A DNA stretch of 64,000 bases, taken from Opitutaceae bacterium (GTDB taxonomy: Bacteria; Verrucomicrobiota; Verrucomicrobiia; Opitutales; Opitutaceae). Location of the stretch: assembly GCA_005792355.1 (NCBI GenBank), contig SXSC01000245.1, positions 1-64,000 on the forward strand, read 5' to 3'. The notes under the pieces were generated by a model. It had not been told where the DNA came from and searched no databases. It saw only the letters and a list, made by a program, of their open reading frames with translations. Both the position numbers and the translations under genes were made by a program. Shown here one piece after another: positions 7,451-33,784 of the stretch (position 1 is its first letter; each line of letters opens with the position of its first letter).

Positions 7451-7594
7451 CCCGCATTTTTAGCACTCAAACTGCCATTCAATCATGTCCAACTTACGCC
7501 GCTTCCACGCTTCGGCGCTGGCTTCGAGTTCATGCGGGCTAAAGGCAAACCCGCAGCGGTTTGCCGGTGGCGCGGACGCTCCTGACGAATGAGC
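7450..7594 (+). repeat. Dispersed ~140-bp repeat, copy A, with micro-ORF 7485..7592
   Basis: CGCATTTTTAGCACTCAAACTGCCATTCAATCATGTCC...CTTCGAGTTCATGCGGGCTAAAGGCAAACCCGCAGCGGTTTGCC matches the reverse complement of ~27755-27900. Confidence 0.75.
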
Positions 7595-10528
7595 CCACGG
7601 CTGAGATTGGCGAACCCGCGGCCGTTGCGCAGGCGGGAAACGGAAAAAGAGTCCGGGCTGCGGCGGGTGTTGGCGGCACTGTTATTTCTCCCGGGAGCCG
7701 CCGGGTCCGCCCTCGCCGCCGCCGATCCGGCGGGCCTCGCGTTTTTCGAGCAGAAGATTCGTCCGGTGCTCGCGGAGCACTGTTACGAGTGCCACAGCGC
7801 CCTGGCGAAAAAACTCAAGGCGGGGCTCCTGCTGGATTCGAAGGCGGGCTGGGAGAAGGGCGGCGACAGCGGCGCGCCAATCATTGTGCCGGGCCAACCC
7901 GAGGCCAGCCTGCTGCTGCGCGTGATCCAGCATCTCGAGGACGATTTGGCGATGCCGCCGAAAAAGCCCAGGCTGCCGGACGCGGTCCTCGCCGATTTCG
8001 TGACGTGGGTGAAGCTGGGCGCGCCCGATCCGCGCGACGGCGTGGTCGGGGAGGCGAAACGTGCCGACAAGTCCTGGTGGTCGTTGCAACCGGTCAAGCA
8101 GGTGGCGCCGGAAGTGACGCCGGGAGAAACCGCGATTGATCACCTCATCGGGGCGAAGCTGGCGGAGAAAGGGCTCGCGCTCAATCCGCCGGCGGATCCG
8201 CGCGCGCTGATTCGGCGGATGAGTTACGATGTCATCGGCCTGCCGCCGACGCCCGAGGAGGTGCGGGCGTTCGAGGCGGCCCATCGCGCCAATCCACCGG
8301 AGGCGACCGCGGCCCTGGTGGAGCGGTTGCTGGCGTCGCCGCATTACGGCGAGCGCTGGGGGCGGCACTGGCTCGACGTCACGCGCTTCGGCGAGAGCGT
8401 GGGCTTTGAGCGGAACGTCATCATCAACGATCTCTGGCCCTTCCGCGACTACGTGATCGCGTCGATCAACGATGACAAGCCGTTCAACCAGTTCATCGTG
8501 GAGCACCTGGCGGGCGACATCGTCGGCAAGGATGATCCGGCGGTGGAACTGGGCAGCGCGTTTCTCGTCGCGGGGCCCTACGACGACGTGGGCAACCAGG
8601 ATGCCGTGGCGCAGAAGAATATTCGCGCGGCCACGCTCGACGACATGATCACGGCGACGAGCGGGGCGTTTCTCGGGCTCACGATGAACTGCGCGCGCTG
8701 CCATCACCACAAATTCGATCCGGTGCCGACGGAGGACTATTACCGGCTGCGCGCCGCCTTCGAGGGCGTCACGCATGGCCGGCGGGTGATCGTCTCGCCG
8801 GAGGAGCGCGCGCGGTTTGCCGCCGCCGCGGAGCCGATCGAGCGACGGAAGACCGGGCTCACGGAGGCGAAGAGCGGGCTCGACCGCGCGATCGACCAGC
8901 GGGCGAAGGAGGAGCTCGAACAGCGACCGGCCACGCGCCCGAAGATCGATCCGCAGCTGACGGAGGAACGATTCGCGCCGACGCCGGCGCGCTTCGTGCA
9001 GTTCGTGATGCACGCGAGCACGGCCAACCCGCGCAGCGCCGCCGGTGCCCGGTTGGTGGAGTTTGAGGTGTGGAGCGCCGGGCCGGAAGCGCGCAACGTC
9101 GCGCTCGCCCGCCACGGGGGAGCGGCCGAGGGGGCCAAGTCGGCCACCGCGGAGGACTTTCCCGAGGCCTATGGCGCGCAGTGCACGATCGATGGTAAGT
9201 TCGGCGAGCAGTGGTTCATCGGGACGCCGGCGGTGCTCACCCTGACGCTGGCGCAGACGGAAATGATTGACCGCATCACCTTCCGCAATGCCAAGGGCCG
9301 CGACCTCGAAGAAGGCAACGCCAAGGGGGCGACGCCCTGTGATTACGACGTGCAGGTTTCACCCGACGGTCAGGCCTGGCGGACGGTCGCCAGCAGCGCG
9401 GGGCGCGAGCCGTGGACCGCGGCGCACGGGGTGCAACGCGTGCGCCGTGAGATCCTCACGCCGGACGAGCAGCGGCGACTCGCGGCGCTCGACCGGCAGA
9501 TCGAGGCGGTGAATCGCGAACTCAAGGCGGTGCCGCCGTTGCGCGAAGTTTGGGCGGGAAAGTTTGCGGAGCCGACCGGGCGGACCTTTGTCCACAAGGG
9601 TGGCGATCCCACCAAGCCCGGCGAGCCCGTGCTCCCCGCGAGCCCGGCCGTGCTCGGTCAGGTGCTGGAGCCGTTCGCGCTGGCGGCCGACGCACCCGAA
9701 GGGGAGCGGCGGCTCGCTCTGGCGAAATGGATCACCCGGGACGACAATCCGCTCTCGCCGCGCGTCCTGGCCAACCGCGTATGGCAGCACCATTTCGGCA
9801 CGGGAATTGTGGATACGCCGAGCGATTTTGGTTTTCTGGGCGGCAAGCCCACGCACCCGGAACTGCTCGACTATCTCGCCGGGCGCCTGCTGGCGCACGG
9901 GTGGCGGCTCAAGCCGCTGCACCGCGAGATTCTGCGGTCGCGCACGTATCAGCAATCCGCCGCCTACCGGGCGGACGCGGCCGGGGCGGACAAGGAGGCC
10001 CGGCTCTTGTGGCGTTTTCCCCCGCGCCGGCTCGGCGCCGAGGAGATTCGCGACACGCTGCTGCACGTCGCCGGCGCGCTCGACCTCCGGATGGGAGGTG
10101 TGGGGTTTCGGCTCTACCGGTTTACGCAGAACAATGTCTGCACTTACTTCCCGCTCGATCGGCACGGCCCCGAAACCTACCGCCGCGCCGTTTACCACCA
10201 GAACGCGCGCGCGAGCGTCGTCGATGTGCTCAACGACTTCGATCTGCCCGACATCGCCTTCGCCGCACCCCGCCGGGTGAACACCACGACGCCGCTGCAG
10301 GCGCTCACGCTGCTCAACCACAGCTTCACCCTCGACATGGCCCGGGCGCTGGCGGGCCGGCTGACCGGCGGCGTCGACGAGCAGATCACCCGGGCGTACG
10401 CGCTGGCGTTCCAGCGCGCACCGACAGCGGCCGAGCGGTCGGCGGCCACCACGCTCAGCGCGGCGCACGGCATGGCGGCTTTGGCTCGCGCGTTGTTAAA
10501 CGCGAACGAGCTCATCCATCTCGATTGA
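7589..10528 (+). CDS. DUF1549/DUF1553 protein with N-terminal planctomycete-type cytochrome c domain
   Basis: FFEQKIRPVLAEHCYECHSA haem motif, HYGERWGRHWLDVTRFGES (DUF1549), RVWQHHFGTGIVDTPSDFGFLGGKPTHPELLDYLA (DUF1553). Confidence 0.93.
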   Translation: MSPRLRLANPRPLRRRETEKESGLRRVLAALLFLPGAAGSALAAADPAGLAFFEQKIRPVLAEHCYECHSALAKKLKAGLLLDSKAGWEKGGDSGAPIIVPGQPEASLLLRVIQHLEDDLAMPPKKPRLPDAVLADFVTWVKLGAPDPRDGVVGEAKRADKSWWSLQPVKQVAPEVTPGETAIDHLIGAKLAEKGLALNPPADPRALIRRMSYDVIGLPPTPEEVRAFEAAHRANPPEATAALVERLLASPHYGERWGRHWLDVTRFGESVGFERNVIINDLWPFRDYVIASINDDKPFNQFIVEHLAGDIVGKDDPAVELGSAFLVAGPYDDVGNQDAVAQKNIRAATLDDMITATSGAFLGLTMNCARCHHHKFDPVPTEDYYRLRAAFEGVTHGRRVIVSPEERARFAAAAEPIERRKTGLTEAKSGLDRAIDQRAKEELEQRPATRPKIDPQLTEERFAPTPARFVQFVMHASTANPRSAAGARLVEFEVWSAGPEARNVALARHGGAAEGAKSATAEDFPEAYGAQCTIDGKFGEQWFIGTPAVLTLTLAQTEMIDRITFRNAKGRDLEEGNAKGATPCDYDVQVSPDGQAWRTVASSAGREPWTAAHGVQRVRREILTPDEQRRLAALDRQIEAVNRELKAVPPLREVWAGKFAEPTGRTFVHKGGDPTKPGEPVLPASPAVLGQVLEPFALAADAPEGERRLALAKWITRDDNPLSPRVLANRVWQHHFGTGIVDTPSDFGFLGGKPTHPELLDYLAGRLLAHGWRLKPLHREILRSRTYQQSAAYRADAAGADKEARLLWRFPPRRLGAEEIRDTLLHVAGALDLRMGGVGFRLYRFTQNNVCTYFPLDRHGPETYRRAVYHQNARASVVDVLNDFDLPDIAFAAPRRVNTTTPLQALTLLNHSFTLDMARALAGRLTGGVDEQITRAYALAFQRAPTAAERSAATTLSAAHGMAALARALLNANELIHLD

Positions 10529-27564: not shown

Positions 27565-27688
27565 CTAGTTTGCCGACCGCAAAGTAGCGTGACAAGTAGC
27601 GGCGAGCGCCAGCGAGTGGAGCGCGCCGGTGGTCCACTCGCTGGCGCTCGCAGCTACACGTCACGAAAGTTATTGGTCGCGCCACTAG
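27565..27688 (+). repeat. 124-bp CTAG-bounded hairpin element, copy 1
   Basis: CTAG ends, 19-bp perfect arms GCGAGCGCCAGCGAGTGGA/TCCACTCGCTGGCGCTCGC around a 12-bp loop GCGCGCCGGTGG. Confidence 0.9.
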
Positions 27689-27698
27689 CCCGGACTTT

Positions 27699-27900
27699 TC
27701 ACACTCTTCTCTCCTGCGCCGCCACAGCCTGGTCAGAAATCTTGGCCGTGCTCTCAACCGTCTGGAGCGTCCGGGCTATTGGCAAAACCGCAGCGGTTTT
27801 GCCTTTTAGCCCGCATGAACTCGAAGGCAGCGCCGCAGGGTGATCGCGGCGGAAGCGGGACATGATTGAAAGGCAGTTTGAGTGTGAAAAATGCCGGCTC
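27699..27900 (-). repeat. Dispersed ~140-bp repeat, copy B, with micro-ORF 27699..27863
   Basis: Reverse complement reads GGCATTTTTCACACTCAAACTGCCTTTCAATCATGTCCCGC...CCTTCGAGTTCATGCGGGCTAAAAGGCAAAACCGCTGCGGTTTTGCC. Confidence 0.75.
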
Positions 27901-27992
27901 ACTGGCACCGGATCCAATCCCTTGGGCCGCAAAGGGGCCTGGCGCGGCTGAGCCGGTGGAAACGAAATCGCAAATAAATGCTTTGAACGGCG

Positions 27993-30257
27993 GTGGATTT
28001 TTCCCGCATAAACTCGGCTGCCTTCATGCTTCCCCCGATCTTCCGCCGGCGCTCGTACCTGCCGTTGCACCTCGAACTTGTCGCGAGTCTCATCGCGCGC
28101 CTCCTCTATCGGGTGCGGACGAGCGGGCTGGAGAATCTGCCGCCGAAGGGCGGGGTGCTGATCATCCTAAACCACATCTCGTATGCGGACGTGGTGGTGC
28201 TCCAGCTGGCCTGTCCGCGGCCCATTCGTTTCATCGGGCACAAGGGCCTGCGGAGAAACGCCTTCTTTGACTGGTGCTTTGAGATTTCCGGTTGCATCGC
28301 CATCTCCTCGGAGCAGCCGCGGGAAGGGATGCGGGCGGCGGTCAACGCCCTGAAGGCCGGTGAGGTCGTGTGCATCTGCCCGGAAGGGCACATTTCGCGC
28401 ACGGGGCAGCTGATGGAGATTCAACGCGGCTTCGAATTGATCGCCCGGCAGTCGGGCGCGCCAGTCTTGCCCGCCGCGCTGGACGGCCTGTGGGGCTCCG
28501 TCTTCTCGTTTGCCGGGAACAAGTATCTGTGGAAGTCGCCGCGCCTGATGCCGACCCATGTTTTCATCGCCTTTGGCGCCCTCGCGCCGCCGGAAAAAGT
28601 TTCGCCGGCTTGGGCGCGCCGCGAACTGCTCGATTTGGGCGAGAAGGCGTTTGGCGAGCGTCCGGTGCTGAAGCGAAATCTGGCGCGGGAATGCTTGCGC
28701 ACGCTGAGCAAGCACCCCTGGCGCTTGATCATCGTGGATCGCACGACCGGCCGGCGCGAGCTCACGTGCGGCCAGCTCTACGCCGCGGTGGCGGCATTGT
28801 CGCGACGGATTCGGGCGACGATTCCGGAGCGACGGGTCGGCATCGTCTTGCCGCCCGGAGCGGGCGCCTTTATCGCCAATCTCGCCGTGCTGACCGCGGG
28901 CAGAATTCCGGTGAACCTGAATTTTACCGTGGGCCGCGCGGCACTCGAGACGAGCCTGCGGATTGCCGGGGTGACCACGGTCATTTCCGCCGAAGCCCTG
29001 CGGGCCAAATTGCCGAATTTCCCGTGGCCGGAGCGCACGCTCGACCTGAAGACCGAACTCGAAGCGGCCGGGGGCAAGCGGGCGATGCTGCCGTGGGTCA
29101 TCGCCGCCTGGCTCCTGCCCAATCAATGGTGCGCCAGCTTGCTGGGTGTGTCCAAGGTGGGCGACGGGACCGAAGCGGGCTTGCTTTTCACGAGCGGCAG
29201 CTCCGGCGAACCCAAGGGGGTGCCCCTCACGCACCGCAACATCCTGGCGAACTGCGCGCAGATTTCCTCGCTCTCCATTCTGCCCGAAACCTGTTCGCTG
29301 CTCGCCTGTCTCCCGGTGTTTCACAGCTTTGGTTTTACGGTCACGATGTGGTATCCGATGCTGCGCGGTTGCCGGGTCGTCACGCTCCCAAGCCCGCTGG
29401 ATACGCGCAAGATCGTGGATGCGATCGCCCAGGAAGGCGTGACCGTGATGATCGGCGCGCCGACTTTTATCCGCCCCCTTTTGAAAAAGGCCCGGCCGGA
29501 TGAACTAAAGACCCTCGATCTCGTGGTGACCGGGGCGGAGAAGCTTCCGGATGAACTGCACAAGGCGTTTCTCGAGACGTTTCACATTGAAATTCTGCAG
29601 GGCTATGGGCTGACCGAGACGACGCCGGCGTCCAATATCAACCAGCCGCATCCGCCGGTGGTGGTGTCGACCAACGAGCCGCAGGCCGGCAAGCGTTTTG
29701 GCGCGGTCGGGCGCATGATGCCGGGCATGACGGCGCGGATCGTAAACCCGGAGACGTGGGAGGAACTGCCCTTTGCCGAGCAGGGCGTCGTGCTGTTTCG
29801 TGGCGCCAACGTGTTTGGCGGTTACCTCGACGACCCGGGAAAAACGCGCGCGGCTTTTCATGACGGCTGGTTTATCACCGGGGACCTCGGGCGCTTCGAC
29901 GACGACGGGTTTCTCTTCATCGAGGGCCGCATTTCCCGTTTCTCGAAAATCGGAGGTGAAATGGTGCCGCATGGCACGATCGAGATGAAGATTATCGAGG
30001 CCTTCGACTGGGATCAGACGGAGAGTCCCGCGGTCTATGTCACCGGCGTGCCGGATGCGGCCAAGGGTGAGGCGCTGGTGCTCCTGACCACGCACGAAGT
30101 GACGCTGGACGTGTTGCGGGCGAAACTCGTCGCGCTCGGAGTTCCCAACCTGTGGGTGCCGAAAATCATCCGTCGCGTGGACCGGATTCCCATGCTGGGC
30201 ACGGGGAAGACCGACCTGAAGCAATGCCGTGAGCTGGCGAGCGAAGTCACGAAATGA
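27993..30257 (+). CDS. Fused 1-acyl-glycerol-3-phosphate acyltransferase / AMP-dependent acyl-ACP synthetase (Aas-like)
   Basis: LIILNHISYADVVVL (acyltransferase HX4D region), TSGSSGEPKGVPLTHRN, YGLTETTP, FITGDLGRFDDDGFLFIEGR. Confidence 0.92.
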   Translation: MDFSRINSAAFMLPPIFRRRSYLPLHLELVASLIARLLYRVRTSGLENLPPKGGVLIILNHISYADVVVLQLACPRPIRFIGHKGLRRNAFFDWCFEISGCIAISSEQPREGMRAAVNALKAGEVVCICPEGHISRTGQLMEIQRGFELIARQSGAPVLPAALDGLWGSVFSFAGNKYLWKSPRLMPTHVFIAFGALAPPEKVSPAWARRELLDLGEKAFGERPVLKRNLARECLRTLSKHPWRLIIVDRTTGRRELTCGQLYAAVAALSRRIRATIPERRVGIVLPPGAGAFIANLAVLTAGRIPVNLNFTVGRAALETSLRIAGVTTVISAEALRAKLPNFPWPERTLDLKTELEAAGGKRAMLPWVIAAWLLPNQWCASLLGVSKVGDGTEAGLLFTSGSSGEPKGVPLTHRNILANCAQISSLSILPETCSLLACLPVFHSFGFTVTMWYPMLRGCRVVTLPSPLDTRKIVDAIAQEGVTVMIGAPTFIRPLLKKARPDELKTLDLVVTGAEKLPDELHKAFLETFHIEILQGYGLTETTPASNINQPHPPVVVSTNEPQAGKRFGAVGRMMPGMTARIVNPETWEELPFAEQGVVLFRGANVFGGYLDDPGKTRAAFHDGWFITGDLGRFDDDGFLFIEGRISRFSKIGGEMVPHGTIEMKIIEAFDWDQTESPAVYVTGVPDAAKGEALVLLTTHEVTLDVLRAKLVALGVPNLWVPKIIRRVDRIPMLGTGKTDLKQCRELASEVTK

Positions 30258-30369
30258 TGCTCAGCTGGGAGGCCGGGAGCCCCACCGCGCGAGGGATGCG
30301 CGGCGAAATTGAAGACCACGGGGTGGAGGCACCCCGCAGCCATCAAACTGAAAGGAGTAACGCGGACAC

Positions 30370-31341
30370 ATGAGAATTGATTGTCATGTTCACGTCGTCG
30401 GCAACGGCACCGGCGGCACGGGCTGTTGGTACCGGCCGCGCGGAGTGACGCGCCAGCTCGCGCCGCACCTGCTGCGCACGGTGGGTCTGCCACCGTCGGC
30501 GCTTTCCGGCGACCTCGACCGGCTCTATGCGGAGCGTTTGCTGGCGTTCGTGCGGGAGTCGTCGATCGATGCCGCGGTGATTCTGGCCCAAGATGAACCG
30601 CACGATGATCACGGGAAGGTAATCGAGAATACGGGGTCGTTTTACGTGCCGAACGATTTCGTGTTGCGGCTCGCGCGGGAGCACCGGGAGTTTCTGCCGG
30701 CAATTTCGATTCATCCGGCGCGACCGGATGCGCTCGAGGAACTGGAGCGGTGCCTGGCGGCGGGCGCGGTCATGCTGAAGTGCCTGCCCAACTGCCAGAA
30801 CATCGACTGGAACAATCCACGCTACACCCGCTTTCTCGAGCGAATGGCGGAGTGCGGCCTGCTCCTCCTCGCGCACACGGGCAGCGAGCGCACGCTGCCC
30901 GTGCTCGACGCGCGGCTCGCCACCCCGCGCGTGCTCACTCGCGCCCTCGAGATTGGCGTCACGTGCATCGCGGCGCACAGCGGCACCGGAATGATGGTGC
31001 TCGATCCCGACTACTTCGACGTGTTTGTCGAAATGACCCGGCGGTTTCCCCGGCTCTATGGCGATAACAGCGCGCTGGCCTGTTTTAATTTCCGGGCCCG
31101 CCCCGGCGCGATTCGTCGCATGGTTCAGCCCGGACTGTGCGAGCGCATTTTGCATGGCAGCGACGTGCCGGTGCCGGTGACGGCCGCCCTGCTGTGGGCG
31201 ATGGGCGTGGTCTCGTGGCGGGAGTGGCGCGACTCGGCGGCGGTCGCCAATCCGATCGAGCGCGATGCGCGGATCAAACGCGCCATGGGCTTCGGGGAGG
31301 ATTCCTTCACGCGGCTCGCGGGGTTGTTGCGGCGGGTTTAG
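30370..31341 (+). CDS. Amidohydrolase-family metal-dependent hydrolase
   Basis: MRIDCHVHVVG, FLPAISIHPARPDALEELERC, LLLAHTGSE, ILHGSDVPVP. Confidence 0.88.
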   Translation: MRIDCHVHVVGNGTGGTGCWYRPRGVTRQLAPHLLRTVGLPPSALSGDLDRLYAERLLAFVRESSIDAAVILAQDEPHDDHGKVIENTGSFYVPNDFVLRLAREHREFLPAISIHPARPDALEELERCLAAGAVMLKCLPNCQNIDWNNPRYTRFLERMAECGLLLLAHTGSERTLPVLDARLATPRVLTRALEIGVTCIAAHSGTGMMVLDPDYFDVFVEMTRRFPRLYGDNSALACFNFRARPGAIRRMVQPGLCERILHGSDVPVPVTAALLWAMGVVSWREWRDSAAVANPIERDARIKRAMGFGEDSFTRLAGLLRRV

Positions 31342-31439
31342 GCCACGACCCCGGCCGGATTGCCGCCAGTTTGCAGCTTGGCCTGGTGTTTTTTTTATGC
31401 CACATGGAGCGCGTTGGACGGCCGCAGCTCCAACCTCCT

Positions 31440-31856
31440 GTGACTCCTACCAATGTGATTTCAAACCCGTTCGCCGCGCAGTTGTCCGTGGTGATGGCTG
31501 ACGATGTGGCCGAGATTCAGACGCTGGTGAAACATTGGCTCAGCGAAGCCGGCCACCTGGTGCGTTGCGCCTCATCGGGACGAGAGGTCGCCCAACTCGT
31601 CCGCCAGCAGCATGTCGATTTGATCATCACCGACATTCTCATGCCGGACGAAGATGGGCTCAGTGTTATCATGGATGCGAAGCGGACGCATCCCGAAGCC
31701 CGGCTGCTGGCGATTTCCGGTGGTGGACTTCACTTGCAGGCATCCGATTGCCTGCTGATGGCGAAGGCGCTTGGCGCCCACGACGTGCTGCTCAAGCCCT
31801 TCAATCGTGAGCAATTGCTCTCGGCGGTCAGCCGCGTGATTCAGAGCGGCGTCTGA
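31440..31856 (+). CDS. Single-domain response regulator (REC); start uncertain (GTG 31440 or ATG 31494)
   Basis: VVMADDVAEIQTLVKHWLSEAGHLVRCASSGREVAQLV...DLIITDILMPDEDGL...DVLLKPFNREQLL. Confidence 0.9.
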   Translation: MTPTNVISNPFAAQLSVVMADDVAEIQTLVKHWLSEAGHLVRCASSGREVAQLVRQQHVDLIITDILMPDEDGLSVIMDAKRTHPEARLLAISGGGLHLQASDCLLMAKALGAHDVLLKPFNREQLLSAVSRVIQSGV

Positions 31857-32584
31857 AAAACCTTGGTGCGTCGCGTCGCGCTGCGACCACGCAACGGGAT
31901 GCGCTCCGCCGGCGTCCGGAAGGCGCGGCGGCGGTAACCGGCCCGGGTCGAATCCGCCGCGCAACGCAGTTGGATTTCCTGCATGCGTTGGAACAGGTCG
32001 AGCAACTGGGCGGGCAGGGGATAGCGATCCAGTCCGCTTCGCTCCAGTGCGCCGAGCAATTCGTGCGTGGCTTCCAGGGTGGAAAGGCAGCCGGGATGCG
32101 GCTGTTGCTTGATCAAGAACCGGCTGGGCGCGGACGGAGTGAACATGATGCGCGGCAACCGCTGCAGGCTCGGGCTGAGCCGGAGCATTTTTCGGCCCAG
32201 CGCCCAGGTGGCGTCGAGGAGAAAGACGGTCAGGGTGCGGTCCCCGAGTTGCGTGCGCAGCGGGGCGAGGGCGAGGTCCGTTCCCGTCGTGGCGGAGTCA
32301 CTGAGATTCACGGCGTCGCGTCCTGGGTAGAGGAGGACGGGATAGTTGCCCGGCGCGTGGATTAGTTCCTGCACCGTCTCGTCCGCGTCAAACCCGATCC
32401 CGGTGACGATCCGGCTGTGGGTGAGACAGAGGTGGGTGAGCCGGCCGGTGGCGGCTTTCTCTTTCTTGAATTCCTTCGGATGCATCAGAAACACGAACTG
32501 CGTGCGGGTCTCCATGGGCGTGATCGAGCCGCACCAACAGAGCGACTGGGGCCAGAAGCACCGGTAACAGGTGGCGCGGCTCAT
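31841..32584 (-). CDS. DTW-domain protein (tRNA-uridine aminocarboxypropyltransferase-like)
   Basis: CYRCFWPQSLCWC, FLMHPKEFKKEKAATGRLTHLCL, LLDATWALGRKM. Confidence 0.9.
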   Translation of the reverse strand: MSRATCYRCFWPQSLCWCGSITPMETRTQFVFLMHPKEFKKEKAATGRLTHLCLTHSRIVTGIGFDADETVQELIHAPGNYPVLLYPGRDAVNLSDSATTGTDLALAPLRTQLGDRTLTVFLLDATWALGRKMLRLSPSLQRLPRIMFTPSAPSRFLIKQQPHPGCLSTLEATHELLGALERSGLDRYPLPAQLLDLFQRMQEIQLRCAADSTRAGYRRRAFRTPAERIPLRGRSATRRTKVFQTPL

Positions 32585-32607
32585 GGAGGCAAGAAAGGTG
32601 CTCGCGC

Positions 32608-33600
32608 TCAGGGCGCGGTCTGGCCGCCGCGCCCGAGATGCTGCCCGAGAAACGCCACCACCCGAGCAATGTTCTCCGGTGACGAAAACTCCGGCCCGCC
32701 GTGTTTGGCTCCGGAAATAATCTGCAGCGTGGACGTCGCACCCGCCCGGACCAGCGCGGCGTGCAGCGTTTCGCTTTGATTGCGCGGCACCGTGGGATCG
32801 TCCGCCCCGTGCAGGATGAAAAACGGCGCGGATGTGCGGCTGACGTACGTCACCGGGCTGGCGGCGGCGGCCTTGTCTTTGTTTTCCAGGACCAGCCCGC
32901 CGATCAGTTTGGACTCGGGCGAACCGGGCTGGGCGTGGGAAGCAAAGCCAGGGGTTTCGACGAACCGCACGAAATCGCTGGGCCCAAAGTAGTCCACGAC
33001 CGCCTGGACGCGACTGGACTGTTCCAGCTGCGCGCCGACGTCGAAGGCCTTCACGTCTCCGGCGGTGCCCAGCAGTGCGACGAGGTGACCACCGGCGGAA
33101 CTGCCCCACGCAGCGAAGCGTCTGGAGTCGAGCTGATGCTCCCGCGCATGGGCGCGAAGCCAGCGGATCGCGGCCTTCACATCCTGGATCTGAGCGGGAA
33201 AAATCGCGGCGTCGGTGAGGCGGTAGCCGATGCTCGCAATGGCATAGCCCCTGGCGATGAAGCCGAGGCGAAGGGGCAGCACGTTGTCCTTGCTGCCATT
33301 TTGCCAGCCGCCGCCGTGGACCCAGATGATCACGGGCAGCGGACCGCGGACGTCTTTTGGCAGGAAGAGATCAAGCTTCTGACGTTCGTGTCCGCCGGCG
33401 ACGTAGGCCAGATCGCGGTGGGCGACGACACCGGCGGGGAGCGGGAGCGCGGACCTATTCGGCGTGGCGGGAGTTTGAGCCGAGGCGACGGCGAGCGCGG
33501 CGGCGAAAGCGACGTGAAGTCGGACGGTGTGCATGGCGAGAGGTGGGGACAAGTGCGGAACGGGCGTGAGCAGCACAAGGCCGAGTGGCGGACGGCGCAA
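32608..33600 (-). CDS. Secreted alpha/beta hydrolase (carboxylesterase-like)
   Basis: LPVIIWVHGGGWQNGSKD, FAAWGSSAGGHLVALLG, FFILHGADDPTVP. Confidence 0.92.
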   Translation of the reverse strand: MRRPPLGLVLLTPVPHLSPPLAMHTVRLHVAFAAALAVASAQTPATPNRSALPLPAGVVAHRDLAYVAGGHERQKLDLFLPKDVRGPLPVIIWVHGGGWQNGSKDNVLPLRLGFIARGYAIASIGYRLTDAAIFPAQIQDVKAAIRWLRAHAREHQLDSRRFAAWGSSAGGHLVALLGTAGDVKAFDVGAQLEQSSRVQAVVDYFGPSDFVRFVETPGFASHAQPGSPESKLIGGLVLENKDKAAAASPVTYVSRTSAPFFILHGADDPTVPRNQSETLHAALVRAGATSTLQIISGAKHGGPEFSSPENIARVVAFLGQHLGRGGQTAP

Positions 33601-33660
33601 CCGTCGAGTGACGGGTGGGCGAGGCAGCGCTGGTGCCGCGGTCTCCCGCGCGGGCGCAGC

Positions 33661-33784
33661 CTAGTGGCGCGACCAATAACTTTCGTGACGTGTAGCTGCG
33701 AGCGCCAGCGAGTGGAGCGCGCCGGTGGTCCACTCGCTGGCGCTCGCCGCTACTTGTCACGCTACTTTGCGGTCGGCACACTAG
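33661..33784 (-). repeat. 124-bp CTAG-bounded hairpin element, copy 2 (reverse orientation, inverted loop)
   Basis: Reverse complement matches copy 1 except one base and the 12-bp loop, which is exactly reverse-complemented. Confidence 0.9.

Follow-up and report, generated by a model that had tools for sequence, protein, structure and literature searches.

Copies of a 124-bp hairpin-forming repeat in an Opitutaceae genome carry the same 12-bp loop in either of two orientations relative to their own outer sequence. The inversion of the loop is real; it is probably recurrent and most likely arises via template switching at the hairpin. Two of the copies lie in the window, the 64,000-nucleotide stretch of contig C202 that was analyzed, which belongs to an 8.4-Mb draft genome of 416 contigs (G000). 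Their features are listed here by window position.

27565 to 27688, plus strand: element copy 1, 124 bp, loop state A
27596 to 27657, plus strand: GTAGC...GCTAC core hairpin of copy 1, REPIN-like and common to other Opitutaceae repeats
27602 to 27620, plus strand: left arm of copy 1, 19 bp, perfect, GCGAGCGCCAGCGAGTGGA
27621 to 27632, plus strand: loop of copy 1, 12 bp, state A, GCGCGCCGGTGG
27633 to 27651, plus strand: right arm of copy 1, 19 bp
33661 to 33784, minus strand: element copy 2, 124 bp, loop state B, inverted relative to its own outer sequence
33698 to 33716, minus strand: 19-bp arm of copy 2 (right arm of the element)
33717 to 33728, minus strand: 12-bp loop of copy 2, CCACCGGCGCGC on the element strand
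33729 to 33747, minus strand: 19-bp arm of copy 2 (left arm of the element)

The initial annotation had described two 124-bp copies in opposite orientation, each with CTAG at both ends, that differ by one base (T/G) and by a precise inversion of the loop between the same 19-bp arms, and this description is confirmed when both copies are read on the element strand. The loops GCGCGCCGGTGG (state A, copy 1) and CCACCGGCGCGC (state B, copy 2) are exact reverse complements, and the arms that enclose them are the same in both copies and perfectly paired. Outside the loop the copies differ only at position 6 (CTAGTT versus CTAGTG), close to the 5' end of copy 1 when read along the element; here G is the genome-wide consensus and the T of copy 1 is unique. 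Each copy is predicted to fold into one long hairpin (−51.2 kcal/mol for copy 1 and −49.4 kcal/mol for copy 2, with z = −10.7 and −9.3 against shuffled sequence), and an Rfam scan of the window returned a tRNA as its sole match. Chance is excluded as the source of the resemblance, since 12 loop bases are exactly reverse-complemented with a single other difference and both states recur in a family of about 70 copies. The same family size removes any special role for the gene block of about 6 kb that the pair had been noted to bracket, which is the interval between two of these copies. A composite transposon or an invertible 6-kb block is likewise ruled out, as the intervening genes (acyltransferase/AMP-ligase, amidohydrolase, response regulator and BD-FAE esterase) are unrelated.

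The roughly 70 copies in the genome have unrelated flanks and sharp common ends at CTAG. Their alignment contains 68 rows, and removal of the row at the end of C344, which duplicates the C105 copy through a 141-base contig overlap, leaves 67 distinct copies, of which 61 are in state A and 6 in state B. All five further copies that are cut by contig ends (C137, C272, the end of C172, C269 and C77) are in state A. The six copies in state B are located as follows.

C142, 140 to 263
C202, 33661 to 33784 (copy 2 of the window)
C116, 35370 to 35493
C307, 7694 to 7817
C114, 22685 to 22808
C22, 12898 to 13021

Variant loops depart from A or B by single substitutions; the loop at locus L071 is B with G as its first base, on a stem longer by one pair, and the variant at L065 is CCACTGGCGCGC. 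The genome-wide count therefore gives two reverse-complement states with a few point variants, not random loops, and supports the earlier reading of a MITE/REP-type element with true loop inversion.

Comparison of loop state with the rest of the element indicates how often the inversion has occurred. Seven sites outside the loop are informative, and four of them (sites 44, 100, 126 and 127) fail the four-gamete test, occurring with the loop states in all four combinations. State B is found on the 44T (2 B, 5 A), 126T (1 B, 1 A) and 127T (1 B, 10 A) backgrounds as well as on the consensus. Over the 106 columns that lie outside the loop and the end tetranucleotides, three groups of identical copies contain both states (16 A with 2 B, 2 A with 1 B and 4 A with 1 B), so the loop has probably inverted repeatedly and recently. 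From these patterns we infer that the B states represent several events, not one, and the backgrounds suggest, with moderate statistical strength, at least four separate inversions in this genome. A maximum-likelihood tree of the outside-loop sequence requires five loop changes, the same number as with shuffled labels, and its signal is thin. Among copies with 44T, which have a longer stem of 25 bp, 2 of 7 are in state B; a preference of B for the longer stem is not significant (Fisher p = 0.11).

The explanation that fits best, and that we hold to be fairly probable, is a non-autonomous, hairpin-forming mobile repeat whose loop inverts through template switching, with DNA polymerase as the presumed agent. 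The 19-bp arms and 12-bp spacer of the core form a near-perfect inverted repeat, which means that a nascent strand could switch templates within one arm during replication or repair. The switched strand would copy the spacer off the complementary strand and then return to the original template in the other arm, and the outcome would be an inverted spacer with arms and outer sequence unaltered. The copies carry this signature, as their arms are unaltered and their spacers exactly reverse-complemented on several backgrounds. The explanation is further supported by exchange points within the perfect arms and by both loop states in a second element family.

Site 44, immediately outside the perfect arm, indicates where the exchange took place; 60 copies have G at this site and 7 have T, in each case facing A. 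All four B copies with G44 retain the G...A mispair unflipped, which places the ends of the inverted segment within the 19-bp arms. Flipping of the whole GTAGC...GCTAC core would instead be expected to produce T...C at this pair, and none of the aligned copies has it. The unflipped site speaks against a cut by a REP-type nuclease at the hairpin foot and agrees with a strand switch within the arms. Template switching would, however, also be expected to homogenize the arms; against this, 60 copies retain the G/A mispair at site 44, and single stem mutations are mostly uncompensated.

The second element family comes from a sister genome. Many genomes of the genus contain a core of the form GTAGC[C/T]GCGAGCG..AGCGAGTGG, followed by a loop and the inverse of the core, with loops and outer sequence that differ. 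In the sister genome (G025), about 38 copies are present of a different element of ~147 bp (GGGCGCATCTGCCAATTGACGGT...core...GGGTAACCGTCAACGTGGAGATGCGC) with loops mostly of 20-21 bp, and in four of these the loop is inverted relative to the outer sequence.

C96, 29377
C83, 2184
C3, 104052
C75, 1889

The tree of the G025 outer sequence requires two loop changes, and a single origin is compatible with these data (AU test in G025, p = 0.48). The presence of both orientations in this element indicates that inverted loops extend beyond a single element and a single assembly. At locus L091 on C95 of G000, another type of core hairpin has a loop of 23 bp and an outer sequence resembling that of the G025 family (..ACCGTCAACCCAGAGATGCGCCAGG), which suggests that both outer families may be common to the genus.

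Among the alternatives to template switching, ectopic gene conversion would transfer the loop from an oppositely oriented copy, or from a different repeat that has this core, by pairing between the 19-25-bp arms. The product would be the same as that of template switching, and the genome offers potential donors in its roughly 70 near-identical copies and in further core hairpins. The homology, however, spans no more than 19-25 bp, and no recombinants are seen among sites 44, 126 and 127, which flank the loop on its two sides. Nor were left-left or right-right chimeras of the outer ends found among the L and R ends, which pair except at contig ends; simple crossovers between copies in inverse orientation should yield such chimeras as accompanying products. 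Gene conversion is accordingly judged unlikely, with some real chance of being correct.

It is improbable, to a greater degree, that one old inversion gave rise to a few B copies that were then transposed and came to differ in background through later homoplasy. In G000 the AU test does not formally reject one B clade (p = 0.097), and conflict is also seen between some other pairs of sites. Such an origin would nevertheless need parallel mutation at sites 44, 126 and 127, and on three backgrounds there are B copies whose outside-loop sequence is exactly that of A copies.

Enzymatic flipping by a Y1 (RAYT-like) nuclease, which would cleave the core hairpin at its foot and join in the hairpin from the opposite strand, or else entry of the core into the outer element in either orientation, is given a low probability. 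The genome contains 23 Y1_Tnp genes (loci L102-L124), and the core has GTAG at its foot, like RAYT-associated REPs (PMC3733652). A cut at the foot would, however, flip site 44 as well, contrary to the pairs observed there, and the repeats that flank the Y1 genes do not match the element. Several of these genes are flanked by inverted repeats of 23-34 bp, often of the GGGGTCAG... type, and in this arrangement they resemble TIR-flanked tyrosine transposases (PMC3733652). The core is absent near all 23 Y1_Tnp loci, so that none qualifies as a cognate RAYT. A search for the DDE families DDE_3 (IS630) and DDE_Tnp_1 yielded one IS630-type and one weak IS4-type match, and neither locus has element ends or the core nearby. 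Y1_Tnp, DDE_3 and DDE_Tnp_1 were thus each rejected as the cognate transposase after their loci had been scanned for ends and core. An autonomous parent was not found in the draft G000 assembly, where element ends are confined to short copies. The initial annotation had listed cruciform resolution, template switching and a recombinase as possible mechanisms and had pointed to a RAYT/IS200-like or invertase gene that could act in trans. Of the listed mechanisms template switching fits best, and a transposase acting in trans is not supported by the families searched, as the Y1 genes present have terminal repeats with no relation to the element. The data accord better with template switching (‘IR spacer inversion’) than with a transposase flip of the whole hairpin.

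Loop flipping could also be part of the life cycle of the element, with an enzyme acting on the extruded hairpin to swap the hairpin tips of the two strands at mobilization; this is a slim prospect, and if true, loop orientation would be a record of transposition history. An assembly artefact at the repeated palindrome, conceivable for a short-read type draft in which many contigs terminate in copies, is the least probable account, since G000 contig ends overlap by exactly 141 bases, implying an assembly word length of 141 in which a whole 124-bp copy and unique flanking bases would fit so that loop state is tied to locus, B copies have distinct flanks, and the separate MAG G025 has both loop states in another element, evidence that appears strong but not final.

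With its short length, dispersed copies, common ends and lack of a transposase gene, the element has the features of a MITE. Its terminal inverted repeats are imperfect, formed by 56-bp half-arms that are 77-79% complementary, and its core has the REPIN trait of GTAG at the foot of inverted halves that form one hairpin (GTAGC...GCTAC). CTAG flanks most copies on both sides, mismatching ends occur, and the palindromic form of this tetranucleotide makes an origin in the element indistinguishable from one in the target; empty sites in neighboring repeats share this ambiguity. Its central T and A are unusually variable (4-13% versus about 1% in the interior), which suggests target-derived bases. 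The variants CTGG, CCAG, CGAG and CTCG occur at the end tetranucleotides of G000 copies (the positions equivalent to window 27565-27568 and 27685-27688), usually on one side of a copy, and simple target duplication does not explain such one-sided variants. Palindromic MITEs such as ERIC, RUP and Correia/NEMIS, which are short imperfect palindromes at TA-type targets, would be comparable in form. The element is apparently an undescribed Opitutaceae MITE/REPIN-like family.

Two other repeats were observed in the window. One family adjoins copy 1 (27685-27900) and occurs also at 7451-7659; it has the form CTAGCCCGGA..TTTTCACAC.. with TAGCCCG/CGGGCTA ends and a GGCAAAACCGC..GCGGTTTTGCC hairpin, and several copies of the 124-bp element are located at the CTAG of this family. 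Between 42318 and 45098, ten 32-nt repeats are spaced mostly at multiples of about 102 bp, possibly as part of a gene for tandem protein repeats.

The closest bacterial elements are REPINs and GTAG repeats (PMC3116915, PMC3733652), and the Opitutaceae relative O. terrae is reported there to be rich in GTAG repeats. REPINs and GTAG REP dimers share with the element two inverted GTAG-tagged halves, one hairpin and high copy number. The element differs in that its core lies inside a longer CTAG-ended palindrome, its loop is conserved and occurs in two orientations, and no cognate RAYT was found among the 23 Y1_Tnp loci. Inversion of inverted-repeat spacers by template switching is known in yeast, mostly between already perfect arms (PMC8604942), and it resembles the present case in that arms are kept, the spacer is exactly reverse-complemented and the event is recurrent. 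The yeast spacers are a few bases long and lie at single loci, whereas those in Opitutaceae are 12 bp (and 20-21 bp) long and belong to a dispersed bacterial mobile family. Hairpin loop inversions are also well known from chloroplasts, for example at trnH-psbA (PMC2903610). These minute inversions are likewise homoplasious, with a stem-loop whose loop is found in both orientations, but they concern single organellar loci, in contrast to a multicopy transposable repeat. The open-access literature searched yielded no description of an inverted loop in any bacterial MITE or REPIN, which is not proof of absence.

A hairpin family that combines many copies, a directional loop and asymmetric flanks provides a natural reporter for palindrome-driven template switching in bacterial genomes. 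Flips are recorded copy by copy, and their frequency can be set against arm length, loop length and point mutation. The trees put the ratio of the flip rate to the per-site substitution rate very roughly at 8-10 in G000 (about 4-5 flips on a weakly resolved tree with a length of 0.51 per site) and at about 0.2 in the more divergent G025 family (2 over 8.8, a rough value that also comes from a weakly resolved tree). Loop differences between palindromic repeats should also be scored as a single event, not as many substitutions.
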